This document shows positions 12,163 to 25,637 of a stretch of 44,636 nucleotides of DNA, piece after piece (position 1 is the stretch's first letter; each line of letters opens with the position of its first letter). Origin of the DNA: Tateyamaria sp. ANG-S1. Its GTDB lineage: Bacteria > Pseudomonadota > Alphaproteobacteria > Rhodobacterales > Rhodobacteraceae. A program made the position numbers and the translations under genes. Where the stretch lies: assembly GCF_000814025.1 (NCBI RefSeq), contig NZ_JWLL01000003.1:829639-874274 (forward strand), read 5' to 3'. The notes under the pieces were generated by a model. It was not told where the DNA came from. It saw only the letters and a list, made by a program, of their open reading frames with translations, and did not search any database.

Positions 12163-12915
12163 CTAGTTTGCCGTCACCTCTGCACGCGTGGCTTCTTCCG
12201 TTGTCAAAAAACGGGTCAGCACCTTTGCGAATAGGTCTGGTTCTTCTATGTGCACCAAATGTGCACAGTTTGGGATCACGCACAGAGATGTTTGGTCTAT
12301 CCCTCGCCACAACGCTTCAGTCTGCGACCACGGATATGTTCTGTCGCGATCTCCCCAAATTAAGAGCGTGTCGCAGACAATATGATCCAAGGCCTCCACT
12401 CCGGACCATTTCTCCATTGCTTCAAGACCAGCGAGAATTGTCGAAAGGGTCGCTTTCTCGGCAAGCCGCGCAATGTCATGGAAGGCGCAAGACCTCTCTA
12501 GCTCTAAGAGCCATGTTGATGCAATCCCCCGCGCTGTCTCACACGCTCCATCTGCATGTGCACGACGTTTGCTTTCGCTAATGGGCTCGAACCGTCCCGG
12601 CAAAACACCAACCGGACCAGTCCCATAGAGTACGAGTTTGTCAATCAACACAGAATCGCGACGCGCCACCTCCTGCGCGATCATCCCACCCATAGAGTGG
12701 CCCAACAGATTGCAGTCGCTCACGCCTTGCTCTCGGAGTGTCTCAATCACCCAATCTGCATATGATCCAATGGACGGCAGCGGTGCGTCAGCCGCGGCCG
12801 CGCCGAAGCCGGGCAGATCCAACGCAATGACGTCATGGTCGTTCAATGATGAGGCAAGATTTGCCCATTGTTCCGAGCCGCCAAGGAAGCCATGCACAAG
12901 GACGAGTGGCTTCAA
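12163..12915 (-). CDS. Alpha/beta hydrolase
   Basis: The 250-residue protein shows the alpha/beta-hydrolase signature: oxyanion region 'LVHGFLGGSEQW' (about residues 5-16), nucleophile elbow 'GHSMGG' (serine near residue 73), acid 'LIWGDRDRTYPW' and the terminal histidine in 'NCAHLVHIEEP'. It resembles esterases and C-C-bond hydrolases of the BioH/MenH kind. It overlaps the ProW-type permease gene by four bases (ATGA), so it is the last gene of the importer operon and probably acts on the imported compound or a derivative. There is no signal peptide, so it is cytoplasmic. Confidence 0.85.
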   Translation of the reverse strand: MKPLVLVHGFLGGSEQWANLASSLNDHDVIALDLPGFGAAAADAPLPSIGSYADWVIETLREQGVSDCNLLGHSMGGMIAQEVARRDSVLIDKLVLYGTGPVGVLPGRFEPISESKRRAHADGACETARGIASTWLLELERSCAFHDIARLAEKATLSTILAGLEAMEKWSGVEALDHIVCDTLLIWGDRDRTYPWSQTEALWRGIDQTSLCVIPNCAHLVHIEEPDLFAKVLTRFLTTEEATRAEVTAN

Positions 12916-14453
12916 TTCTTTTGGCCTTGCACGATGCGATCAAGGATCATGGCGCAGAAAAGAATGGAGAAGCCAGCAAGAATACCTTGGCCGACATTGG
13001 CGTATTGCAACGCTTCCAGCACATCTTCACCAAGACCTTTGGCTCCGATCAAGGACGCAACAACGACCATCGCGAGAGAGAGCATGATGGTCTGATTGAT
13101 GCCAGCGCGGATCGACGGGCTTGCAAGCGGCAAATCGACCTTGGTGAGCAGATACCACTTATTCGCACCAAAACTAATCGCAGCTTCGCGCACACTGTCC
13201 GGGACCCCACGAAGTCCGAGCACTGTGAGGCGCACAACAGGCGTGCCGCCAAAGATCATGGTCGTCACTACCGCGGCAGGTTTTCCTGTCCCAAAGAAAG
13301 CTATGACCGGGATCATGAAGACAAAAGCGGGCATGGTCTGCATAAAGTCCATGATTGGTTGGATGAACCTGTAAAAGCGCGGGCGGCGGGCTGCGAACAT
13401 TCCCAGCGGAATACCAATAACAATCGAAAGGCAGGCAGCCGTCCCAAGGAGCGCGAGGGTCGTCATGGCTTTTTCCCAGAAACCCAACAGGCCCATATAG
13501 GCGAGGAACGCACCCGAGTAGATTGCAATGCGAACGCCAGCCGTAAGCCATGTGAGCAGGATGATAAGCGACGCGATGACGATCCATGGCGTGCTCACAA
13601 AGATCAGCTCCAGCGCATCAAGTATGAGCCGGATTCCATAGGTGATCCCATCAAAGAAAGCATCGCCATTCACGACCGCCCAGTTAAAGAATGCCTCGAC
13701 GCCATCGATACTGACCAGTCGGATATCCGGCTCTGTAGGAAAGGCGCTGAGAAGGTCGAAACGACCTGGGAAGCTGTAATGCACCATCGCGACCGCAACC
13801 ATCACGACCATGAAAACCGAACTGAATACGATTTGTGAAACGGGCAGCCCTGACCGGATGCTCTTGTTGGACAGCCAGTCTGAAAACCGCGCCTCAAGTG
13901 CCCAGTTCGCCACCGTTGACTGAACCGCTTTGACAATCACCAAGATGATAAAGCCGGTGAGAGCAATGGTAGGTCCTTCTGCTGCAAGAGCCTCTGCTTC
14001 CGCACGAATTCCACCGATATTTGCCTCCAGCCCGTCAACAGCACGTTGAAAGGCATCAACCCGATCCGAGCCACTTTCGATTGCGGCAGCAAGCTGCTGA
14101 CGTCGGAGTTCCAAGGTCCCTTCAATCGATGAGATGCGCGCCATAGCGTCAGCGGCAAGGTCACCGAACAAGCCGCGCGCGATCTGGACAAACGCAAGGG
14201 CCTCAATAATCAGAAAAGACAGCGCCCACGACCAGAGGCCCCGCGCACCAAACCAGATAGGTCCGAAAAGGCCAGCCATCGCGTTGAATGTGGGGGTAAA
14301 CCGGGCCGACGCACCCACACGGTCAAAATTCGAGATGTAGTAATCTGGGCTTGTCCGGACGAAGGTCCGGATGTTTGCGCGCCGCTCTTCTGCATATGCA
14401 ATGGCAGCCGCGCTTTCGGTATCTTCGAGCGGATTGATCGTCTCGTCTTTCAT
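12912..14453 (-). CDS. ABC transporter permease, quaternary-amine type (ProW-like)
   Basis: The 513-residue membrane protein has the BPD_transp_1 permease domain in its C-terminal 210 residues, with the EAA loop 'REAAISFGANKWYLLTKVDLP' (given in part), as in glycine betaine/proline permeases. The N-terminal 300 residues add a cytosolic start, several membrane helices and a stretch rich in E, R, A and Q (about 95-150) that could form a periplasmic coiled coil. Such long ProW proteins are common in marine alphaproteobacteria. Four-base overlaps with the ATPase gene upstream and the hydrolase gene downstream show tight coupling. The substrate is probably a zwitterionic osmolyte-like molecule. 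Confidence 0.9.
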   Translation of the reverse strand: MKDETINPLEDTESAAAIAYAEERRANIRTFVRTSPDYYISNFDRVGASARFTPTFNAMAGLFGPIWFGARGLWSWALSFLIIEALAFVQIARGLFGDLAADAMARISSIEGTLELRRQQLAAAIESGSDRVDAFQRAVDGLEANIGGIRAEAEALAAEGPTIALTGFIILVIVKAVQSTVANWALEARFSDWLSNKSIRSGLPVSQIVFSSVFMVVMVAVAMVHYSFPGRFDLLSAFPTEPDIRLVSIDGVEAFFNWAVVNGDAFFDGITYGIRLILDALELIFVSTPWIVIASLIILLTWLTAGVRIAIYSGAFLAYMGLLGFWEKAMTTLALLGTAACLSIVIGIPLGMFAARRPRFYRFIQPIMDFMQTMPAFVFMIPVIAFFGTGKPAAVVTTMIFGGTPVVRLTVLGLRGVPDSVREAAISFGANKWYLLTKVDLPLASPSIRAGINQTIMLSLAMVVVASLIGAKGLGEDVLEALQYANVGQGILAGFSILFCAMILDRIVQGQKN

Positions 14454-15505
14454 GACACTTCTGTCCCTTCGATAACCGTGCGCAACAGATCCGCCCGGGT
14501 AATGACGCCAACGTCGGAACCGCCATGCTCAACGAGGATCGGCTTGCTGTCGTCTATCGCCAGATTGATCAGGTTGCTGAGCGTTTCTTGATCGCCGACA
14601 CGTACGACATCTGCGGGGAGTGGACCCTCCTTCGCCACGAAGCTCTGCACAGGTTGCATAACCGCGCGGGCGTGCACGACTTTAAGCCTTGAGATACCCG
14701 CGACAAAATCGGCGACATAGTCATCTGCGGGGTTCATCACGATATCTTCCGCGGTGCCGATCTGCACCATGGCACCGTCACGCATGATCGCAATACGGTC
14801 ACCGATGCGCACAGCTTCATCCAGATCGTGCGTGATGAAGATCGTGGTTTTCTTCAGGATTTTGGACAGGCGGATGAACTCATCCTGCAACTGCCTCCGA
14901 ATGAGCGGGTCGAGTGCTGAAAATGGTTCATCCATCAAAAGCACATCGGGGTTTGCCGCCAACGCGCGTGCAAGGCCCACGCGCTGTTGCATCCCACCCG
15001 ACAGCTCATGAGCGAATTTTGAGCCCCATGCACCAAGCTCAACAATGTCCAGGATCGCCGCCGCTTGGCGCATCCGCTCATTCTTGGGGACCTGCCGGAT
15101 TTCGAGCGGCATGGCCACGTTGTCCATCACAGACCGGTGAGGCATCAGCGCGAAGTTCTGGAACACCATGCCGATCTTGCGGTTCCTGAAATGCTGAAGT
15201 GGGGTCGGCGCGAGAGCCATCACGTCAGTGCCTTCAATCTCGATCTTTCCGTCTGTGGGCTCAAGAAGTCGATTGAAATGGCGGACCAAGGTGGATTTAC
15301 CGCTTCCCGACAAACCCATGATGCAGAAGATCTCGCCCCGGTTCACGGAAAGGCTGACATCGGCAACACCAACAACGGCGTTGTGTTGGCTCAGAACCTC
15401 GGCCTTGGTGAGCCCGTGTTCACGGATCGCCTGAAGCGCCGCTTCGGGTTTGTGGCCGAAGATTTTCCAGACGTTAGAAATCTCGATTACAGTCTCGTTT
15501 GACAT
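14450..15505 (-). CDS. ABC transporter ATPase, quaternary-amine type with C-terminal CBS region (ProV-like)
   Basis: The 351-residue ATPase has Walker A 'GLSGSGKST' (about residues 64-72), signature 'LSGGMQQRVGLARALA', Walker B 'VLLMDEPFSALDP' and switch histidine 'THDLDEAV'. Like ProV and OpuAA, it has an N-terminal extension and a C-terminal CBS-type part ('VEHGGSDVGVITRADLLRTV'). This part senses ionic strength or nucleotides in relatives; only one CBS repeat is clear here. It couples to the ProW-type permease, which overlaps its stop. A strong hairpin separates it from the binding-protein gene upstream. Confidence 0.92.
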   Translation of the reverse strand: MSNETVIEISNVWKIFGHKPEAALQAIREHGLTKAEVLSQHNAVVGVADVSLSVNRGEIFCIMGLSGSGKSTLVRHFNRLLEPTDGKIEIEGTDVMALAPTPLQHFRNRKIGMVFQNFALMPHRSVMDNVAMPLEIRQVPKNERMRQAAAILDIVELGAWGSKFAHELSGGMQQRVGLARALAANPDVLLMDEPFSALDPLIRRQLQDEFIRLSKILKKTTIFITHDLDEAVRIGDRIAIMRDGAMVQIGTAEDIVMNPADDYVADFVAGISRLKVVHARAVMQPVQSFVAKEGPLPADVVRVGDQETLSNLINLAIDDSKPILVEHGGSDVGVITRADLLRTVIEGTEVS

Positions 15506-15524
15506 GGCGGTCCTCTATGGACAG

Positions 15525-15551
15525 AGCGGCACCGACATGATCGGTGCCGCT
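15525..15551 (-). terminator. Intra-operon hairpin between binding-protein and ATPase genes
   Basis: AGCGGCACCGA (15525-15535) pairs perfectly with TCGGTGCCGCT (15541-15551) over a five-base loop. There is no T run. Hairpins at this place usually stabilise the upstream mRNA or partly terminate, so that the binding protein is made in excess of the membrane parts. Confidence 0.65.
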
Positions 15552-15562
15552 GGTTTGTCATC

Positions 15563-16519
15563 TTACAGGCCAAGCATGGCGTCGACGCGATCAGAGTTGG
15601 CCTCAACCCAGGCTTTGGCCGCATCTGCAGCGTCCATTCCGTTGCTGATCTCGAAAGCCAGCCCGCTCACGTCATCCGCCGTCAGCGCAAAGTTTGCGAA
15701 AAACTCTGCGATGGCGGGGGAGCGGTCAGGAAGCGAGTTCGACCACGCAATCTGGACCTCTTTCAGCGCGTCCTTGGTCGCAACCATGGAGTTTTCATAC
15801 CAATCTGCATCGTCAGATGGCTGCACCATGACGTATTTCGCCGGGTCATAGGTCGGTTCCGTCAGCATACGCACGTCAAATTGGAACCAGACCGCATGGG
15901 GCGTGTAGCAATAGAATGCGTAACCTTCGCCCTTCGCGATTGAGTCTTTGATGCGCGCTGTCTTCACGCTTTCCTCGGCCCGGATGGGTTCAACGAAGTC
16001 AAGAAGGCCGTAGTCACGTGTTTTGACTTCGTTCACGTTGGCAGAGGCCCAGCCGGGCGCACCGATCCACATTTCACCAAGGCCGTTGCCGTCGCTGTCC
16101 ATCAACGCTGCCACATCTGGCCGACCAAGATCAGCGATATCGGTGATGTCATTGGCAGAGCCAAAATCTTCAGTGACGCAGAAACCTTGATTGCCTTCAT
16201 AGGGATTGGAGGACAGCGTGACAGTGCCTTCATCTTCCACATATTTCTTTGTGAAGCTTTCCTGGTTGGGCAGCCATACATCGGGGTGGACGTCGATATC
16301 GCCGTTTCCTTGCCCCATTGCCTGGAAGATCGTGGCATTGTTGCCAGGCACATACTCGACCGTGCCGCCAATCCGTGACATCACAACTTCACCCAACACG
16401 TGGGCGATGGCCTGTGCGCCCGTCCACGATGGTACGCCGATCGCCACCTCCTCAGCGAAGGCCGGGGCGCACATTGCGCTGACAACTGCCGCGCCAAAGA
16501 GCATCTTGGTCTTGTTCAT
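15563..16519 (-). CDS. Substrate-binding protein of the quaternary-amine ABC importer (ProX/OpuAC type)
   Basis: The 318-residue protein has a Sec signal peptide ('MLFGAAVVSAMCAPAFA', cleaved before 'EEVAIG') and the OpuAC/ProX fold: 'GVPSWTGAQAIAHVLGEVV', 'DIDVHPDVWLPNQ', and late tryptophans ('HAVWFQFD', 'DADWYEN') that could form the aromatic cage for a methylated onium group. The ATG at 16519 is preceded by AAGGAG at eight bases. It lies 32 bases after the lyase gene. Candidate ligands are glycine betaine, choline, DMSP, S-methylmethionine or a sulfonated amino acid. The adjoining lyase argues for an amino acid containing sulfur. Confidence 0.88.
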   Translation of the reverse strand: MNKTKMLFGAAVVSAMCAPAFAEEVAIGVPSWTGAQAIAHVLGEVVMSRIGGTVEYVPGNNATIFQAMGQGNGDIDVHPDVWLPNQESFTKKYVEDEGTVTLSSNPYEGNQGFCVTEDFGSANDITDIADLGRPDVAALMDSDGNGLGEMWIGAPGWASANVNEVKTRDYGLLDFVEPIRAEESVKTARIKDSIAKGEGYAFYCYTPHAVWFQFDVRMLTEPTYDPAKYVMVQPSDDADWYENSMVATKDALKEVQIAWSNSLPDRSPAIAEFFANFALTADDVSGLAFEISNGMDAADAAKAWVEANSDRVDAMLGL

Positions 16520-16551
16520 GGGATTGTTCTCCTTGTTGGTCGTGAATTTCA

Positions 16552-17646
16552 TCAGGTTTGGTATCCGGGCAGTCCAAAGATTTCCGGGTAGCCGAAGAGT
16601 GCGGCACTGCCACCCGTGTGGAGGAAGACGACGTTATCCATGCCGTCGAAATATCCTTTGCGGATCAGGGTGATGAGCCCATCGAGCCCCTTGCCTGAAT
16701 AGACCGGGTCAAAGAGTAGGCCCTCGGTTTGGGCCAACAGCTTGATGGCCTCAACCATGCCGGGCGTGGGCTTGCCATAACCTGGGCCGACATAGGCACA
16801 ATCTGCGCGTACCGCACTACGCGCGATCGTTAACCTTGTTCCCAAATGCTCGGCTGTTCTTACTGCTAAGTCATGCACCATGGCCTCTTGCTTCTCTTGC
16901 GGCGCGCGCACGCCAATACCGAGAAGATGAATGTCGCTGTTGAGTGCGCTCAGGCCCGTCACCAGGCCAGCTTGGGTTCCGGAACTGCCTGTCGCATGTA
17001 CCAGGGCGTCAATGCCCAATCCCATATCCGCCGCTTGCTCGGTCAGTTCGCGGGCACAATTGACATATCCAAGGGCACCAATTGCGTTGGATCCACCGCC
17101 GGGAATGATGTACGGCTTCTTTCCATCCGCCAGGAGCGTGTCGGCAACCTCTTCCATCTCTGAATTCATATCCGCACCGCCAGGGCGCTTCGATACAGGC
17201 GCGCCGTGCAGTCTGTTGAGGAGGACATTCCCGCTAAGCACGTACGGGTCATCATTTGCTCCAGTGCGATCCTCCAGCAAAATGGTGCAGCCCATGCCCA
17301 GTTTTGCAGCCGCTGCCGCGGTTTGGCGCGCATGGTTGGATTGTGTTGCGCCTTGGGTGATGATCGTGTCGGCACCACAGCGTTGCGCATCTGCCATCAG
17401 ATATTCCAGCTTGCGGGTCTTGTTGCCTCCGGTGGACAGCCCGGTGCAATCGTCACGCTTCACCCACAACCGCGGCCCACCCAAGTGCTCACTCAGACGG
17501 TCCATGGGTTCGAGCGGCGTTGGCAGATGGCCCAGTTTAACGCGCGGAAAACGAGCGAGCGCGATTGACAATTCTTTGCACAGGCTCATTGAAATATCCG
17601 CCGATGGGGCTGCATTTTGCTCTGCCATGTTGTCGATATGCGCCAT
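16552..17646 (-). CDS. PLP-dependent lyase of the CuyA / D-cysteine desulfhydrase type
   Basis: The 364-residue protein belongs to the ACC-deaminase family (fold type II PLP). The PLP lysine is K76 in '[13 protein letters not shown]', and '[11 protein letters not shown]' binds the cofactor and substrate carboxylate. At the two positions that separate functions, it has 'DPVYSGKG' (S317, where ACC deaminase has Glu) and 'LHTGG' (T344, where ACC deaminase has Leu). It should therefore not be an ACC deaminase but a desulfhydrase or L-cysteate sulfo-lyase, and overall it looks very like Ruegeria CuyA. CuyA makes pyruvate, ammonium and sulfite; no sulfite exporter or CuyR is seen nearby, so the substrate is open. 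The ATG at 17646 has AGAGG six bases before it. It is first in the importer operon and divergent from a LysR gene. Confidence 0.8.
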
Positions 17647-17759: not shown

Positions 17760-18647
17760 ATGGATTTAGCGTGGCTCGACGACATTCTCGTGCTCCTCGA
17801 AGAGCGCAATATGACCCGCGCGGCAGAGCGTCGAAACATAACCCAGCCAGCGTTTTCACGACGCATCCGCAGTTTTGAAGACTGGCTTGGCGCGCCAATC
17901 ATCGACCGCCAAGCGAATAGGATCGAACTCAGTGACGCCCTTGCATCCAGGGAAAACGAAATTCGCGCACTTGTGGACCGATTGCGTGGACTGCGTACAA
18001 ATATAGCAAATTACGACGCGCGTCAGCAGCGCCTTACGATTGCAGCGCAACACGCCCAGGTTTGCTCCAGCTTTCCAGACATGGCGCTCCGGGCACGCAC
18101 GGCGTTCCCTGGCCTGCACATTCGCCTTCGAGCTGCCAATGTGGATGATTGCATCAGCGCATTATTGCGCGGCGATGCAGACATGTTTCTGTGTTACGAG
18201 GCGGAGCATGCACGTTCACTAGACTTTGGTGAGGGAATACTGCGTGGCAACTGGGGCTCTGATTTCCTGGTGCCCGTTGTCGGAGGGTCTTTGCGCTACA
18301 GTGTGCGCGCTAGTGGCCATATTGATGAGGCATCACCTGCAATTGTTTATCCCGAAGATAGCTACTTCGGCCGCATCCTCGCGCGTGGACAAAGAGAGTT
18401 CGGAACGGCACAGTATGCTGCAAATCCAGTGTGCGTAACAGCTTTCTCGAGTGGCGTGGTCGAGCTTGTCCTATCTGGCCTAGGCGTTGGCTGGCTGCCC
18501 TACAGTATGGTTCACCGACATGTGGCAAGCGGAACAATGATTTCCTTGGCCAACACACTTGGGCAGGAGCCGCTTAGGGTGGCGATGTTTGCGAATTGCG
18601 ATGTGCCCATCGCTCGGGACTTGATGGCGTTTTGGCAAAACACCTGA
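17760..18647 (+). CDS. LysR-family transcriptional regulator, divergent from the lyase/importer operon
   Basis: The 295-residue protein has a LysR DNA-binding domain ('WLDDILVLLEERNMTRAAER', 'ITQPAFSRRIRSFEDWLG') and a LysR substrate-binding domain over the rest ('GDADMFLCYEAEH', 'VELVLSGLGVGWLP'). A good ribosome site (AAGGAG) precedes the ATG. Divergent placement with 113 bases of shared promoter region is the classical arrangement for a LysR regulator of the adjacent catabolic operon. The effector is probably the importer substrate or a breakdown product. Its 3' end converges on the Lrp gene with a gap of 12 bases. Confidence 0.9.
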   Translation: MDLAWLDDILVLLEERNMTRAAERRNITQPAFSRRIRSFEDWLGAPIIDRQANRIELSDALASRENEIRALVDRLRGLRTNIANYDARQQRLTIAAQHAQVCSSFPDMALRARTAFPGLHIRLRAANVDDCISALLRGDADMFLCYEAEHARSLDFGEGILRGNWGSDFLVPVVGGSLRYSVRASGHIDEASPAIVYPEDSYFGRILARGQREFGTAQYAANPVCVTAFSSGVVELVLSGLGVGWLPYSMVHRHVASGTMISLANTLGQEPLRVAMFANCDVPIARDLMAFWQNT

Positions 18648-18659
18648 TGGCCTTTCCGC

Positions 18660-19124
18660 CTAACCCGACTGTATGTCGGGAAAGACCGAAGTCTCTTTTA
18701 CTGTGCCATAGGCGAACCGCGTATCGATTGACGCAAGCCCCCCAATCCGCTGCAACCGGTTCCGAACGAAGGTCTCGTAGCTCTCAAGGTTTTGCACGAC
18801 AACGCGAAGCTGATAGTCGGCTTGACCCGCCATTACGTAGCAATCAAGGACCTCGCTCATTTGTGCAACTGCGCGTTCAAAGGTCGCTACCGTCTCATCA
18901 TCGTGACGCTCAAGACGGATCGCAGCGAATGCCATCACAGACAAACCGTAAGCTTTGGCGTTTATCTGCGCGCCATAGCCTTGGATAATGCCCGCCTTTT
19001 CAAGCAGCTTCACGCGTCGAAGACATGGAGACGGGGACAGGTTCACCCGTTCAGCCAAATCCTGGTTGGTGATGCGCCCGTTTTGCTGAAGCACGCGTAT
19101 GATCTGGCGATCTTTTTCATCCAT
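18660..19124 (-). CDS. mdeR: Lrp/AsnC-family regulator of methionine degradation (MdeR-like)
   Basis: The 154-residue protein has the Lrp helix-turn-helix ('DRQIIRVLQQNGRITNQDLA', 'VNLSPSPCLRRVKLLEKAG', residues 4-47) and a C-terminal RAM effector domain ('DCYVMAGQADYQLRVVV'). It is divergent from methionine gamma-lyase, exactly as mdeR is from mdeA in Pseudomonas putida, where MdeR is an Lrp-type regulator of the operon. The intergenic region has paired TTGGCA half-sites. The effector is presumably L-methionine or a related amino acid. The symbol is by position and family; no test of function is available. Confidence 0.8.
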   Translation of the reverse strand: MDEKDRQIIRVLQQNGRITNQDLAERVNLSPSPCLRRVKLLEKAGIIQGYGAQINAKAYGLSVMAFAAIRLERHDDETVATFERAVAQMSEVLDCYVMAGQADYQLRVVVQNLESYETFVRNRLQRIGGLASIDTRFAYGTVKETSVFPDIQSG

Positions 19125-19135
19125 TGGGCCCTCGA

Positions 19136-19197
19136 TTGGCAGATTCTGCCAAAATGATGCGTATTTGTGGCCACATTGGCAATCCGTAGCTGCCGAA
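19136..19197. promoter_or_regulatory. Paired Lrp-type sites in the mdeR-mdeA promoter region
   Basis: A perfect palindrome TTGGCAG-ATT-CTGCCAA (19136-19152) lies next to the regulator start. A second, looser one with half-sites TTGGCA (19176-19181) and TGCCGAA (19191-19197) begins 40 bases further on, about four helical turns away. Two sites on the same face of the DNA fit cooperative binding by an Lrp octamer. Confidence 0.55.
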
Positions 19198-19233
19198 TTT
19201 GTTTAGGCTTTCCTCAAACGACGGAGGTCAGAC

Positions 19234-20436
19234 ATGCCGGAAATCCAGGGCTTTGCAACACGTGCCATCCACCTTGGATACAACCCCGCGGAGCATCACG
19301 GCGCTTTGACACCTCCATTGCACATGTCGTCCACGTTCTCTTTTGAAACGGCAGAGGCGGGAGGCGAGGTCTTTGCAGGTGATCGGGAAGGCTACTTCTA
19401 CTCCCGCATATCCAACCCAACCCTCGACCTGCTGGAGAAACGGGTTGCATCTCTGGAAGGTGCCGAGGCTGGGCTGGCGCTCGCCTCGGGCATGGGCGCC
19501 ATCACATCGACGCTTTGGACGCTTCTCAGCCCGGGCGATGAGCTTCTTGTCGATCAAACGCTTTACGGCTGCACATTTGCATTCATGAACCATGGGCTTG
19601 CCAAGTTTGGCGTTCAAGTCACGCATGTGGATATGACCCAGCTAGAACTGGTTGCGGCGGCGATCTCTAACAAGACCAAGGTGGTCTATTTTGAAACACC
19701 GGCCAACCCGAATATGCGTCTCGTCGATATCGCGGCAATTTCGGAGATCGCCCACACACAACGGGCAACCGTCGTTGTTGATAACACCTATGCCACACCC
19801 TACCTGACGCGGCCCATCGAGTTTGGGGCGGACCTCGTCGTGCATTCGGCGACGAAGTATCTGGGCGGACATGGCGATCTTGTCGCTGGGCTTGTTGCCG
19901 GACGCGCCGAGGCCATCGCCGAGATCCGACTTAAGGGCATGAAAGACATGACCGGTGCTGTGATGGCACCAATGAACGCGCTCCTCGTGCAGCGTGGCTT
20001 GAAGACTCTGGCTCTTCGGATGGAACGGCACTCGGAAACGGCGCAACACGTCGCCGAATGGCTCTCCATGCAGCCGCGCGTTGCCTCGATCAGCTACCCA
20101 GGCTTGCCGGAGTTTTCGCAGTTTGAACTTGCGCAACGCCAAATGGCGCGCCCGGGCGGGATGATTGCATTTGAGATGGCGGGGGGCATCTCAGCAGGCA
20201 GGGCATTGATGAACCGGCTCAAAATGATCCAGCGAGCCGTTTCACTCGGGGACGCGGAGACGTTGATCCAGCATCCGGCCTCGATGACCCACTCGACCTA
20301 CAGCCCAGAGGAGCGCGCGGCGCATGGCATCAGCGATGGGCTGGTTCGTCTCTCCATTGGGCTTGAGGACGCGGAAGACATTCTGGCCGACTTGGAGCAA
20401 GCGATGGCTGACACCCATATGGCTGTGGCAGTCTGA
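19234..20436 (+). CDS. mdeA: L-methionine gamma-lyase
   Basis: The 400-residue PLP enzyme of the Cys/Met-metabolism family cleaves L-methionine to methanethiol, 2-oxobutyrate and ammonia. The PLP lysine is K208 in 'SATKYLGGHGD'. 'LYGCTFAF' holds C113, the active-site cysteine that distinguishes methionine gamma-lyase from cystathionine enzymes. The C-terminal 'LIQHPASMTHSTYSPEERA' is also close to the Pseudomonas enzyme. GGAGG lies about six bases before the ATG. It is first in a plus-strand operon with the DmdA-type gene, which begins at or just after its stop, and mdeB. Confidence 0.92.
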   Translation: MPEIQGFATRAIHLGYNPAEHHGALTPPLHMSSTFSFETAEAGGEVFAGDREGYFYSRISNPTLDLLEKRVASLEGAEAGLALASGMGAITSTLWTLLSPGDELLVDQTLYGCTFAFMNHGLAKFGVQVTHVDMTQLELVAAAISNKTKVVYFETPANPNMRLVDIAAISEIAHTQRATVVVDNTYATPYLTRPIEFGADLVVHSATKYLGGHGDLVAGLVAGRAEAIAEIRLKGMKDMTGAVMAPMNALLVQRGLKTLALRMERHSETAQHVAEWLSMQPRVASISYPGLPEFSQFELAQRQMARPGGMIAFEMAGGISAGRALMNRLKMIQRAVSLGDAETLIQHPASMTHSTYSPEERAAHGISDGLVRLSIGLEDAEDILADLEQAMADTHMAVAV

Positions 20437-20471
20437 TGCTTGATTCAACATCTCTTCCTCCAAAGGCCGCC

Positions 20472-21584
20472 ATGTCGCTTTCCATTAGTATCGGACCAAA
20501 CATCCGAAAATCTGCCTACTTCGATGCCACCATTCGGGATGGTGTGCAAAGTTTCTCAGTTTACAATCACATGCTTATTCCGAGCCATTATGGCGATCCT
20601 GACGCGGAGTATGATCGTTTGCTCAACGGCGTTGCGCAGTGGGATGTTGCCGCACAGCGGCAAGTTCAACTACAAGGGCCCGACGCTGGGAAACTGGCGC
20701 AGTATCTGACACCAAGAAACCTTGCAAAGACGCGCGTTGGTCAAGGCCGTTATGTGCCGCTTTGCGACTACGATGGTTGGCTGATCAACGATCCAGTTCT
20801 CTTGAAATTGTCAGATCAGACGTATTGGCTCTCTGTCGCCGACAGTGACGTTCACTTGTGGGCCGCGGCAATCGCAAACGAAAAAGGCTGGGATGCCACT
20901 GTCAGCGAACCAGACGTGTCTCCGATGGCAATACAAGGACCAAAGGCTGTCCATGTTGCCGAGGCGCTGTTTGGAGCTGCCGCAGTAAATCTCAAGTTCT
21001 TCGGATTTATCGAGACGTCGGTTGACGGCATTCCTGTTGTACTGGCGCGGTCTGGATGGTCGAAACAAGGCGGGTACGAGCTTTATCTAAGGGATCGTAG
21101 CAAAGGCACAGCGCTTTGGGACATTGTGAACGAGGCCGGTCAGCCCTTTGGCATCGGTCCCGGTGCACCCAATGATGTTGAGCGACTTGAAAGTGGGCTT
21201 GTCTCCTATGGTGCGGACATTCGTTGGCAGGACTGGCGTGCCACTCCATTTGAAATAGGACTTGGATCACTCGTCGACCTTAAATCTGAGCACGAGTTTG
21301 TTGGGCGCGCCGCCCTCGAAGCGATGGCTGCAAGAGGGCCACAAAGGAAGCGGGTCGGATTTGTTCTGGATGGATCCCCCGCGTTTCCTGGTCATCCCTG
21401 CCCGGTCACAGGCAATGGCAAAGACATTGGCTATGTCAGCGAATTCGCGTTCTCGAAGCGTTTGGGGAAAACAATCGGCGTGGGTTTGGTCGATGCTTCC
21501 GTATCGGAAAAAGAGACCAAGTTGACCGTTGCAACCGATAGCGGACCAGTTGCTGCCCGTTTCCACAGAATTCCATTTGTGTGA
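20472..21584 (+). CDS. DmdA-type tetrahydrofolate-dependent sulfonium demethylase homologue
   Basis: The 370-residue protein belongs to the GcvT/aminomethyltransferase superfamily and is closest by eye to DMSP demethylase DmdA. It shares 'VYNHMLIP' at the N-terminus, 'WDVAAQRQVQLQGPDA', 'LINDPVLLKLSDQTYWLSVA' , 'SPMAIQGPKA', 'RSGWSKQGGYELYLRD' and 'GAPNDVERLESGLVSYGADI'. DmdA moves a methyl group from DMSP to tetrahydrofolate. The start at 20472 gives the family's N-terminal length; an ATG at 20436 overlapping the mdeA stop is the alternative and would imply tighter coupling. Standing between mdeA and mdeB, it may demethylate a sulfonium compound to methionine rather than act on DMSP. Substrate assignment is inference. 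Confidence 0.8.
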   Translation: MSLSISIGPNIRKSAYFDATIRDGVQSFSVYNHMLIPSHYGDPDAEYDRLLNGVAQWDVAAQRQVQLQGPDAGKLAQYLTPRNLAKTRVGQGRYVPLCDYDGWLINDPVLLKLSDQTYWLSVADSDVHLWAAAIANEKGWDATVSEPDVSPMAIQGPKAVHVAEALFGAAAVNLKFFGFIETSVDGIPVVLARSGWSKQGGYELYLRDRSKGTALWDIVNEAGQPFGIGPGAPNDVERLESGLVSYGADIRWQDWRATPFEIGLGSLVDLKSEHEFVGRAALEAMAARGPQRKRVGFVLDGSPAFPGHPCPVTGNGKDIGYVSEFAFSKRLGKTIGVGLVDASVSEKETKLTVATDSGPVAARFHRIPFV

Positions 21585-21595
21585 GGCGCTGGCGT

Positions 21596-23974
21596 ATGGA
21601 CCTTGATCCACATCTCAAGACGGTCGAGCAGCGGCTCCTCTGGCTCAGCCACTGGATGATCCACAACGCCAACCATATCCGTCCAAAAGCGGATGGCATC
21701 AAAGTCGGCGGACATCAGGCAAGCTCCGCCTCCATGGTTTCGATTATGACGGCGCTATACTTCTCGGTACTGCGGCCGGAGGATCGTGTCGCCGTCAAAC
21801 CCCATGCCAGCCCGGTCTTCCATGCCATGCAGTATCTGATGGGCAATCTTGACCGCGCCCGCATGGAGAATTTTCGCGGGCTTGGCGGCGTGCAAAGCTA
21901 TCCGTCGCGGACCAAGGATGTGGACGACGTTGATTTCTCGACCGGCTCGGTTGGACTGGGGGTCGCGATCACGTCCATGGCGTCGCTGGTGCAGGATTTC
22001 ATACAGGCCAAAGACTGGGGGGCTGATCTGGACACCGGGCGCATGGTTGCGCTGGTCGGGGATGCCGAACTTGATGAGGGCAACATTTATGAGGCGCTTC
22101 AGGAAGGTTGGAAGAACGACCTTCGGAATTGCTGGTGGATCATTGATTACAACCGCCAATCTCTGGACGGGATCGTCCGCGAGGGTTTGTTCGAGCGGGT
22201 CGAGAAAACCTTCCACGCCTTTGGCTGGGACGTCATTCGCGTGAAACACGGTGCCTTGCAGAAGGCAGCGTTCAAAGAACCCGGCGGTGAGACCCTGCGC
22301 GACTGGATCGATGCTTGTCCCAATCAGGAATACAGCGCCCTGACATATCAGGGCGGAGCGGTATGGCGAAAACGGCTTCTTGATGATTTGGGTGACCAAG
22401 GTCCCGTCAGCGCTCTTATCGAAAAGCGCAGCGACACTGCGCTTGCCGACCTGATGGAGAACCTCGGCGGCAATTGTGTGGAGACCATGGCCGAGACCTT
22501 CGCAGGCATAGACCATGACCTCCCTGTTTGCGTCCTCGCCTATACGATCAAGGGCTGGGGAACGCCCATTGCCGGTCACAAAGACAACCACGGCGGGCTG
22601 ATGACGAAAGCCCAGATGTCGGACTGGCAGGCGGCGATGGGTGTGAAGCAGGGAGAGGAATGGGAGCCACTGGCAACAGTTGAGGACAAGACCACATTCC
22701 AGCGCTTTTTGGATGAGGTGCCGTTCTTCGCCAAAGGCCCCCGCCGCTACGAGGACGATGTACTGCCGGTCCCCAAGATCGAAGTCGCGGTCGATAAAGA
22801 CATCTCGACGCAAACAGCGTTCGGCAAGATCCTTGATGATCTGGCCAAGGGTGACAGCGCGCTGGCAAAACGGATTATGACCACGTCGCCCGATGTGACC
22901 GGCACAACAAGCCTTGGCCCCTGGGTCAACCGGCGCAAGCTTTTTGCCCGCACCGAAATGGCCGATGCGTTTATCGAGCAGCGCATCCCCTCGACCGCGA
23001 AGTGGAACTTCGCCCCCGAGGGCCAGCACCTCGAACTCGGCATCGCCGAGATGAACCTCTTCCTGTTGTTGGGTGCTGGGGGCCTGTCTCATGCGCTGTT
23101 TGGAAAGCGTCTGATCCCGATTGGAACGGTCTATGACCCGTTTGTGCATCGCGGCCTCGATGCGCTGAACTACGCCTGCTATCAGGATGCGCGGTTTATC
23201 ATTGTGGGCACACCATCGGGTGTGACGCTGGCCCCTGAAGGCGGCGCGCACCAGTCTATTGGCACGCCGCTGACAGGCATGTCACAGGACGGTCTTGCCA
23301 GTTTCGAGCCTGCCTTTGCCGATGAGCTTGCTGTCATCATGGCATGGGCTTTTGACTACCTGCAGCGGGACGGTGGCGCTGATCCGGATGAACGCACCTG
23401 GCTGAGAGACGAAACCGGCGGCTCAGTCTATTTGCGTTTGACCACTGCACCGTTGGAACAGCCCGGCAAACGCGCGGATGACGCTTTCCGCCAAGGCGCA
23501 ATTGACGGGGCCTATTGGCTGAGAAAGCCGGGCCCGAATTGTGACGTGGTCATCGCGTATCAGGGCGCGGTCGCTCAAGAGGCCATCGCGGCCGCCGGAC
23601 AATTGTCGGAAGCGCGGCGCGACGTCGGCGTTCTTGCGGTGACATCGTCCGACCGTCTGAACGCAGGCTGGACCGCCGCCCAACGGGCACGGGCCCGCGG
23701 CAACGCGGCAGCCACATCGCATGTCGAACGTTTGTTTGCCGACCTGCCTGCCCATTGCGCCATCGCGACGGTTCTTGACGGGCATCCCGCAACGCTCGCC
23801 TGGCTTGGGTCGGTGTCTGGCCATCGTGCGATTTCGCTTGGCGTCGAACATTTTGGGCAGACAGGCAGCATTCAAGACCTTTACCGCCATTACGGCATCG
23901 ACCGGACTGGCATTCTTACCGCAGTGAGCGGGCTTACCCGTGGACGGAGTGTCCCGATCAGGCGCGTGATCTAG
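21596..23974 (+). CDS. mdeB: Homodimeric 2-oxoacid dehydrogenase E1 (MdeB-like, 2-oxobutyrate)
   Basis: The 792-residue thiamine-diphosphate enzyme resembles AceE, the single-chain pyruvate dehydrogenase E1, and the transketolase fold. The N-terminal part has 'GGHQASSASM' and the cofactor motif 'GDAELDEGNIYEAL...DYNRQSLDG'. The central pyrimidine-binding part has 'HLELGIAEMNLFLLLGA', and a C-terminal domain follows. It is about 90 residues shorter than AceE. In Pseudomonas putida, mdeB lies next to mdeA and its product oxidises 2-oxobutyrate from methionine to propionyl-CoA, with E2 and E3 partners. The same role fits here; no E2/E3 genes are adjacent. The ATG at 21596 has GAGG nine bases upstream, just behind the demethylase stop. 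Confidence 0.8.
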   Translation: MDLDPHLKTVEQRLLWLSHWMIHNANHIRPKADGIKVGGHQASSASMVSIMTALYFSVLRPEDRVAVKPHASPVFHAMQYLMGNLDRARMENFRGLGGVQSYPSRTKDVDDVDFSTGSVGLGVAITSMASLVQDFIQAKDWGADLDTGRMVALVGDAELDEGNIYEALQEGWKNDLRNCWWIIDYNRQSLDGIVREGLFERVEKTFHAFGWDVIRVKHGALQKAAFKEPGGETLRDWIDACPNQEYSALTYQGGAVWRKRLLDDLGDQGPVSALIEKRSDTALADLMENLGGNCVETMAETFAGIDHDLPVCVLAYTIKGWGTPIAGHKDNHGGLMTKAQMSDWQAAMGVKQGEEWEPLATVEDKTTFQRFLDEVPFFAKGPRRYEDDVLPVPKIEVAVDKDISTQTAFGKILDDLAKGDSALAKRIMTTSPDVTGTTSLGPWVNRRKLFARTEMADAFIEQRIPSTAKWNFAPEGQHLELGIAEMNLFLLLGAGGLSHALFGKRLIPIGTVYDPFVHRGLDALNYACYQDARFIIVGTPSGVTLAPEGGAHQSIGTPLTGMSQDGLASFEPAFADELAVIMAWAFDYLQRDGGADPDERTWLRDETGGSVYLRLTTAPLEQPGKRADDAFRQGAIDGAYWLRKPGPNCDVVIAYQGAVAQEAIAAAGQLSEARRDVGVLAVTSSDRLNAGWTAAQRARARGNAAATSHVERLFADLPAHCAIATVLDGHPATLAWLGSVSGHRAISLGVEHFGQTGSIQDLYRHYGIDRTGILTAVSGLTRGRSVPIRRVI

Positions 23975-23992
23975 CGCCGCCCCAAGGTCAAA

Positions 23993-24014
23993 GGCGGGCC
24001 CCTTTCCACCCGCC
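23993..24014 (+). terminator. Hairpin after mdeB
   Basis: GGCGGG (23993-23998) pairs with CCCGCC (24009-24014) across a ten-base loop, 19 bases after the mdeB stop and with no T run. It could limit read-through into the NhaC-type gene, which starts 211 bases after mdeB and has its own ribosome site. Confidence 0.4.
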
Positions 24015-24185
24015 AGACCCTGGGCCCAAAAGCAAACCGCAGTCGGCGTGCCGGTCTGCAATGTCCAGCCCGCGCTGGCTGAACGCACGTGCGATGTCGC
24101 AGGGCGCGAACGGAGGCGCTTTGCACATCGCCCCATCTCAAGGAGCCACAGAAGCTCTGCCTTATCCGCCAACAAGGAGACAGTG

Positions 24186-25637
24186 ATGAAAACAACAATA
24201 CCTGAGGGTGCGAGAGCGCCCACAATTCTAGAGGCAACGATATCCCTGGTTGCCTTGATCATCGGGATCACGACGTCGATCCTGATCTACGGGCTTGATC
24301 CACACATTCCGATGGTGCTTGGCGTGATTGTCGCGTCGATCGTCGGGCTGCGCTGTGGCTTTTCCTGGACGAACATCCAGAACGGGATGGTGCGCGGGAT
24401 CACCAACGCGATCCCCGCGGTCATCATCCTGCTTGTCGTTGGCATGTTGATCGGCATCTGGATCCTTGCCGGCGTTGTGCCAACGCTCATCTATTATGGC
24501 TTGCTGATCCTCTCACCTGCCATTTTCCTGCCGGCGACCCTTTTGATCTGTGCGGTGATTTCTTTGGCCACCGGGACCAGTTGGGGCACGACCGGGACAA
24601 TCGGTGTTGCGCTTATGGGTGTCGGCGCTGGCCTGGGCATTCCGTTGCCGCTGGTGGCGGGCGCTGTCCTGTCCGGCGCGTATTTCGGGGACAAGATTTC
24701 GCCGCTTTCGGATACCACGAACATGGCGCCCGCAATGGCCGGGACGGACCTGTTCACTCACATTCGGCATATGAGTTACACAACCGGTGTCAGCTTCGCT
24801 ATCACGCTGGTCATCGAAAGTGTCTTGTCATTCCGTTATGCCGCCGCAGAGGGCAATGTCGAGCGGGTCGAGACAATGCTCGCGACACTCGATGCAAACT
24901 ACACAATCAATCCAGTTCTGTTTGTTGCGCCTTTGGTTGTTCTGGTGGTGTCGATCAAGAAAATCCCAGCAATACCGGGCATCACAGTCGGTGCTGTCGT
25001 CGGCGCGATCTTCGCTGCAGGCCTGCAGGGTGCCAGCTGGCCGGACATTCTTAACTCGGCGATGTATGGCGTTTCGTCTGAGACAGGCGGTAACGACGTC
25101 GACAACCTGCTAAGCCGAGGCGGGATGGACTCGATGACTTATACGATCAGCCTGACAATGATCGCATTGATGTTTGGTGGCGTGATGGAGCGTACCAACC
25201 AGCTCAAAGTTCTGGCAGATGCGATACTGGCCAGGGCGCAATCCTCCGGCAGCCTCATCACTGCAACCGCGCTGACGGGCGTTGGTTCCAACCTGGTTCT
25301 CTGCGATCAATACATGTCTATCGTGATGACCGGGCGGACATACGCAGAAGCCTATCGTGATCGGGGCCTGGCTCCAGAGAACTTATCTCGCGCAGTCGAA
25401 GACTCGGCGACCGTCACGGCAAACCTCGTTCCGTGGAACTCCGGTGGGGCCTATCAGGCCGCAACCCTTGGCGTGGCAACCATTGCCTATATGCCGTTCG
25501 CATTCTTCTGCTGGCTGTCTCCGATTGTGACGATCCTGTTTGGAGTCTTCGGCATCACAATCAAGCCGCTCAACGAAGAAGAGCGGGAAAAGAGCGAAGC
25601 ACTCTCACGCGCCACGATCAGGGACGTGGCTGGATAG
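24186..25637 (+). CDS. NhaC-family Na+/H+ antiporter-like transporter
   Basis: The 483-residue polytopic membrane protein has about eleven to twelve helices and the NhaC-family core 'ATGTSWGTTGTIGVALMGVG' followed by 'GAYFGDKISPLSDTTNMAPA'. In the second half it has 'GVGSNLVLCDQYMSIVM' and 'WNSGGAYQAATLGV'. Characterised relatives exchange sodium for protons, or malate for lactate (MleN). The ATG at 24186 is preceded by AAGGAG at six bases. Its place directly behind mdeB suggests a part in methionine catabolism, such as uptake of an amino acid or export of a product. This is inference from position only. Confidence 0.85.
   Translation: MKTTIPEGARAPTILEATISLVALIIGITTSILIYGLDPHIPMVLGVIVASIVGLRCGFSWTNIQNGMVRGITNAIPAVIILLVVGMLIGIWILAGVVPTLIYYGLLILSPAIFLPATLLICAVISLATGTSWGTTGTIGVALMGVGAGLGIPLPLVAGAVLSGAYFGDKISPLSDTTNMAPAMAGTDLFTHIRHMSYTTGVSFAITLVIESVLSFRYAAAEGNVERVETMLATLDANYTINPVLFVAPLVVLVVSIKKIPAIPGITVGAVVGAIFAAGLQGASWPDILNSAMYGVSSETGGNDVDNLLSRGGMDSMTYTISLTMIALMFGGVMERTNQLKVLADAILARAQSSGSLITATALTGVGSNLVLCDQYMSIVMTGRTYAEAYRDRGLAPENLSRAVEDSATVTANLVPWNSGGAYQAATLGVATIAYMPFAFFCWLSPIVTILFGVFGITIKPLNEEEREKSEALSRATIRDVAG

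Follow-up and report, generated by a model that had tools for sequence, protein, structure and literature searches.

A DmdA-like gene within a methionine-degradation unit

Why should a relative of the dimethylsulfoniopropionate (DMSP) demethylase DmdA be encoded between two genes of methionine degradation? The question is raised by a stretch of 44,636 nucleotides from Tateyamaria sp. ANG-S1 (contig NZ_JWLL01000003.1, positions 829,639 to 874,274; the whole stretch is called the window here), in which a gene that we name dmdL, with DmdL for its protein, stands between mdeA and mdeB. The layout of an Lrp regulator followed by mdeA and mdeB is familiar from Pseudomonas putida. In the window, a gene for an MdeR-like regulator of the Lrp/AsnC family (18660..19124, minus strand; Pfam PF13412 and PF01037) is divergent from mdeA (19234..20436), dmdL (20475..21584) and an mdeB-like gene (21581..23974), which lie head to tail on the plus strand with touching ends. 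These coordinates agree with the gene order given in the first-pass annotation of this DNA, including the position of the DmdA-like gene. The dmdL reading frame is open from 20436, where its first possible ATG overlaps the mdeA stop; the second ATG, at 20475 and 38 nt behind that stop, is the start common to the aligned relatives. At the other end, a possible GTG start of mdeB (21581) overlaps the dmdL stop, and the next ATG lies at 21596.

The MdeA protein exceeded both methionine gamma-lyase equivalog cut-offs (NF005695, 726.3 bits against 666; TIGR01328, 615 bits against 549.7), and its top PDB matches were methionine gamma-lyases, the first being 1gc0 (572 bits). The MdeB-like protein, of the thiamine-diphosphate E1 type (PF00456, PF17831 and PF22613), is a predicted 2-oxobutyrate dehydrogenase E1. 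Its similarity to homodimeric pyruvate dehydrogenase E1 is distant (TIGR00759, aceE; 158.5 bits, cut-off 859.9), and it is 82% identical to the MdeB of Ruegeria pomeroyi, whose gene stands beside mdeA. The best NCBIfam match of the regulator was Lrp, at 113.8 bits and thus below the cut-off of 233. As annotated, the mde operon of R. pomeroyi DSS-3 shares the divergent Lrp gene followed by mdeA and then mdeB, but it is without the dmdL that lies between them in the window.

DmdL forms a branch separate from DmdA

The structure model of DmdL (mean predicted local distance difference test score 80.8) has the GcvT-type fold of Pelagibacter ubique (P. ubique) DmdA (PDB 3tfh, 3tfi and 3tfj), with 3tfh_A as its best match at a template modelling score of 0.90 and 36% identity. 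Trimethylamine N-oxide (TMAO) demethylase and dimethylglycine oxidase were also among the PDB matches. A second, true DmdA is encoded in the same genome; it scored 699-700 bits against the NCBI DmdA equivalog NF009133 and is 95% identical to Tateyamaria omphalii DmdA. DmdL is 39% identical to this protein and reached 352.9 bits against the NF009133 cut-off of 410, and the first-pass description of a close DmdA homologue is therefore too strong. Failing this cut-off is by itself weak evidence and says little about DMSP, because each of seven further DmdA-like proteins scored, drawn from several branches and including a Marivivens relative discussed below, also fell under 410 (359-394 bits).

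In a tree of 88 rows, all 11 DmdA rows, P. ubique included, fell on one side of a branch with a Shimodaira-Hasegawa approximate likelihood ratio support of 100, and DmdL fell on the other, where it remained after three plasmid proteins had been added. On the DmdA side, P. ubique was flagged as a long branch, but the 10 Roseobacter DmdA rows group with it. Four loci (L035, L042, L057 and L061) and an outgroup row (OWN_C15) were left out of the trees and the residue alignment; the matched stretches of L043, which was kept in the trees, and of L061 each hold one in-frame stop, written X. DmdL is thus ruled out as a DmdA ortholog by its position outside the clade and its NF009133 score. It shares the folate-binding domains PF01571 and PF08669 with the glycine cleavage protein GcvT and with TMAO demethylase, but falls below the cut-offs of both (TIGR00528, 124.7 bits against 235.85, which rules out GcvT; NF053776, 162.6 bits against 1100). 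DmdL is a separate branch of DmdA-like GcvT-fold proteins, and its nearest relatives in the database (P0002-P0010) are 71-80% identical to it.

To compare residues, 46 core DmdL rows were aligned with 45 others (11 DmdA, 19 from a Phaeobacter-plasmid clade, 7 outer, 6 intermediate and 2 unplaced). PMC7487153 names residues of the folate site and a key DMSP-contact tryptophan (W171 in its alignment), which we mapped to our own numbering; W171 corresponds to P. ubique W197. The folate-site residues so named, S120, E202 and Y204, are present in 46/46 core rows. At the place of the contact tryptophan, 46/46 core rows have tryptophan (W195 in DmdL) and 10/10 Roseobacter DmdA rows, that of this genome included, have tyrosine; the position is not diagnostic, and tryptophan there does not mark the Roseobacter proteins. 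Unlike DmdA, core DmdL proteins carry D234 (46/46), R250 (46/46), Q252 (44/46) and, at 323, glutamate (43 rows; E323 in DmdL) or aspartate (3 rows), with Q252 sitting in a three-residue insertion. None of the 45 non-core rows has these signature letters at 234, 250, 252 and 323, and, as read from the alignment, they fit a changed substrate.

The pairing of mdeA and dmdL recurs

The first-pass annotation had proposed a neighbourhood search in other genomes, and the pairing does recur there. Related loci were taken as the best 80 of 593 relatives from a scan of named genomes; Roseovarius, Aquicoccus, Thalassobium, Frigidibacter and Tabrizicola are among the genera in their titles. The dmdL gene adjoins mde genes in 10 of these 80: seven with both mdeA and mdeB beside it (L021, L025, L031, L034, L038, L040 and L060), two with mdeA alone (L030 and L039) and one with mdeB alone (L036). 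Tabrizicola oligotrophica and Aquicoccus porphyridii are among the isolates with this linkage. In all nine linked loci with mdeA, the distance from the mdeA stop to the start of dmdL is 15-57 nt, and wherever a linked locus holds the Lrp gene, it too is divergent from mdeA. This recurrence makes the order of mde genes and dmdL more than an accident of position. In L031, L034 and L038, dmdL and mdeB are parted by another Lrp-type gene, which lies on the opposite strand and is absent from that place in the window; mdeA-dmdL is therefore a more constant pair than dmdL-mdeB. This additional gene, whose product is some 40% identical to the Lrp protein of the window, stands divergently before mdeB in these three loci and also in several of the MdeB loci read for the survey below.

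In a DmdL tree of 52 rows, one clade of 24 (support 96/92) takes in every one of the 11 linked rows, including that of the window. The mde-linkage label requires four changes on this tree, at least three of them forced, and one gain of linkage with several losses is possible.

S-methylmethionine as candidate substrate

From its fold and its kept folate-site residues, DmdL is most likely a folate-dependent sulfonium demethylase like DmdA. Its likely substrate is S-methylmethionine, since the pairing with mdeA suits methionine as the demethylation product. We give a probability of roughly 45% to the tentative assignment, made from sequence comparison, that DmdL is an S-methylmethionine:tetrahydrofolate demethylase whose methionine product is likely split by MdeA. 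DmdL would then pass one methyl group of S-methylmethionine to tetrahydrofolate, giving methionine and 5-methyltetrahydrofolate, and MdeA would split the methionine into methanethiol and 2-oxobutyrate. The methanethiol would presumably go to an SBP56-family protein (the methanethiol oxidase family), a gene for which lies about 3 kb from the true dmdA in this genome. The 2-oxobutyrate would become propionyl-CoA through MdeB and enter the methylmalonyl-CoA route, and the 5-methyltetrahydrofolate would feed one-carbon metabolism. The genome holds two methylmalonyl-CoA mutase-family matches; a search for an E2 partner gave two PF00198 matches, both away from the mde unit. It is a bolder and more doubtful proposal that DmdL founds a new enzyme clade and that mdeA-dmdL-mdeB takes S-methylmethionine all the way to methanethiol, propionyl-CoA and 5-methyltetrahydrofolate, bypassing DMSP and homocysteine.

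The known bacterial use of S-methylmethionine described in PMC12366255 is the MmuM-type S-methylmethionine:homocysteine methyltransferase of Escherichia coli. This route also yields methionine, as proposed for DmdL, but its methyl group goes to homocysteine rather than folate, its enzyme belongs to PF02574 and is not of the GcvT type, and the mde unit of the window holds no such gene. A partial literature search returned no folate-dependent S-methylmethionine demethylase, no mdeA-dmdA pairing and no paper on the mdeR-mdeA-mdeB precedent. S-methylmethionine is a DMSP precursor in Spartina (PMC11464771) and in MmtN-type marine bacteria (PMC9135737). If the proposal is true, a marine enzyme that leads S-methylmethionine through methionine to methanethiol would open one more way out of the DMSP cycle and add to the sources of methanethiol. 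Genes assigned to dmdA on loose similarity could then have a different substrate, which would bear on gene surveys of DMSP demethylation.

Several observations weigh against S-methylmethionine, beside the weakness of the NF009133 score. Two PF02574 proteins are encoded in this genome outside the mde unit; by the established homocysteine route, they could act on S-methylmethionine or betaine. Within the mde unit, nothing was recognised as an S-methylmethionine transporter or another gene of that kind. In 70 of the 80 related loci, the DmdL-type gene is not beside mde genes. A check of the genomes of 35 of these 70 unlinked loci found MdeB at an expectation value (E) of 1e-200 in 15 and none at that threshold in 20; DmdL therefore does not need MdeB, and an enzyme yielding methionine and 5-methyltetrahydrofolate would probably be useful without it. 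The proportion of 15/35 compares with 39/147 in a sample of the family (149 genomes, one per genus, with two linked genomes removed), at a one-sided Fisher p of 0.047 that is uncorrected for relatedness and joins samples drawn differently. Finally, a relative on a Marivivens plasmid (52% identity) is followed by genes for an AMP-binding protein, an acyl-CoA dehydrogenase and DmdD, a cluster that points to DMSP in that outer branch. The S-methylmethionine reading of the first-pass annotation accordingly holds in part: the position outside the DmdA clade, the opposite of what that annotation had named as one sign of refutation, and the recurrent pairing with mdeA speak for it, while the substrate itself is drawn from gene order and the many unlinked loci and the DMSP-like Marivivens cluster speak against it.

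Other substrates and the unlinked relatives

The strongest rival to S-methylmethionine is DMSP. DmdL could be a second, divergent DMSP demethylase forming methylmercaptopropionate, its adjacency to mdeA reflecting shared control of methanethiol-yielding genes with no reaction chain between them. The DmdA-like fold and folate site, the Marivivens gene order and the preponderance of unlinked loci would all suit such an enzyme. The genome already encodes a separate true DmdA, however, and so has no need of another enzyme for DMSP, and demethylation of DMSP does not need MdeA. Near the core-clade loci, no gene of the dmdB, dmdC or dmdD type was found in a tight array with dmdL, only scattered weak matches. 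The Marivivens protein, moreover, belongs to an outer subclade and is without the core residues; its cluster points to sulfonium demethylation and in this fits the sulfonium chemistry proposed for DmdL. On balance we consider DMSP an unlikely substrate of DmdL.

Another methylated sulfonium or ammonium compound, such as dimethylsulfonioacetate, gonyol or betaine, would make the link to mdeA one of general one-carbon and sulfur supply. Demethylases with the GcvT fold do vary in substrate, as the TMAO demethylase and dimethylglycine oxidase among the PDB matches illustrate, and stand-alone DmdL genes are common. No common partner was seen beside these stand-alone genes among 24 gene starts at 17 loci, judged by first residues, with gene calls unusable at 13 of the 80 loci. 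A distant relative on a Lichenihabitans plasmid (38% identity; L169 4618-9185) lies beside metF, purU, folD and amino-acid ATP-binding cassette (ABC) transporter genes, and in this lichen bacterium the group makes up a cluster for folate-linked demethylation. Such a substrate nevertheless leaves mdeA unexplained as a repeated partner, and we regard it as improbable.

Two further groups of relatives have neighbourhoods of their own. In the Phaeobacter-plasmid clade, the gene stands behind an Lrp-type gene and before genes for OsmC, an enoyl-CoA hydratase and an acyl-CoA synthetase; L103 (6321-11052), L104 (5338-10078), L080, L082, L084, L085, L087-L089 and L091-L093 belong to a clade of this type. 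Trp-Ser-Ser-Glu-Leu replaces Trp-Ser-Lys-Gln-Gly in the clade of L103 and L104, which possibly represents another sulfonium route. At L065 (8024-10494), the gene of an intermediate relative has an O-acetylhomoserine sulfhydrylase-type gene 50 bp behind it (TIGR01326, 565 bits; cut-off 495.1), and this pairing is a second link of a DmdA-like gene to methionine metabolism.

Distribution and mobility of dmdL

The dmdL-bearing mde unit is rare but recurrent. At 55% identity or more, DmdL was found in 4 of the 149 family-sample genomes (our own, G123, G071 and G041), and MdeB in 41; G123 and L031 may belong to one species. Among 30 MdeB loci read with flanks of up to 1.5 kb, of which two (L151 and L160) start near a contig end, DmdL precedes MdeB in two, our own and G123. 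The remaining 11 MdeB genomes comprise seven without a DmdL-type match at E 1e-70 and four with matches of 38-44% identity on other contigs. Plasmid records with MdeB at E 1e-60 numbered 136, and those with a DmdL-type match at the same threshold numbered 14, none above 60% identity. In an MdeB tree of 39 rows, the DmdL label requires six changes, at least three of them forced. The label changes on the two trees and the patchy distribution therefore indicate that mde operons have gained or lost dmdL on more than one occasion.

A further rival reading is that the neighbourhood has no functional meaning and that a mobile mde operon picked up dmdL by chance. The GC content at third codon positions is 0.51 for dmdL, against 0.67 for mdeA and 0.69 for mdeB, and within the genus DmdL occurs in 1 of 20 genomes at E 1e-100 (MdeA in 3 of 20 at E 1e-150), which suit this reading. 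Chance insertion is nonetheless quite improbable in view of the ten other loci, from several genera, that repeat the pairing and of the forced label changes on both trees, although one gain followed by losses is also possible. Least credible of all is that DmdL takes the methyl group of the methanethiol released by MdeA, giving sulfide and 5-methyltetrahydrofolate: dmdL does lie directly behind mdeA, but the methyl donor in known DmdA chemistry is an activated sulfonium, next to which a thiol gives up its methyl group far less readily, and an SBP56-family gene is present for methanethiol.

Neighbouring genes in the window

The interval given in the first-pass annotation runs to 25637 and so takes in an NhaC-family transporter gene (ATG start, 24186..25637, plus strand), 211 bp behind mdeB. 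Its protein exceeds the TIGR00931 cut-off (489.9 bits against 370, scored on the longer reading frame). No NhaC match above 60 bits was present in the DNA of the 80 related loci (up to 9 kb per side), and the gene is outside the recurrent unit. A scan for promoters and terminators returned 4 and 5 sites, respectively; shuffled sequence gave 2.7 and 7.5, so there is no signal. On the other side of the regulator lie genes for a CuyA-type D-cysteate sulfo-lyase (NF052482, 528.7 bits; cut-off 450) and a ProX/ProV/ProW-like ABC transporter, with a divergent LysR gene (12912-17646, minus strand, and 17760-18647, plus strand). This group is likely a cysteate uptake and desulfonation unit.

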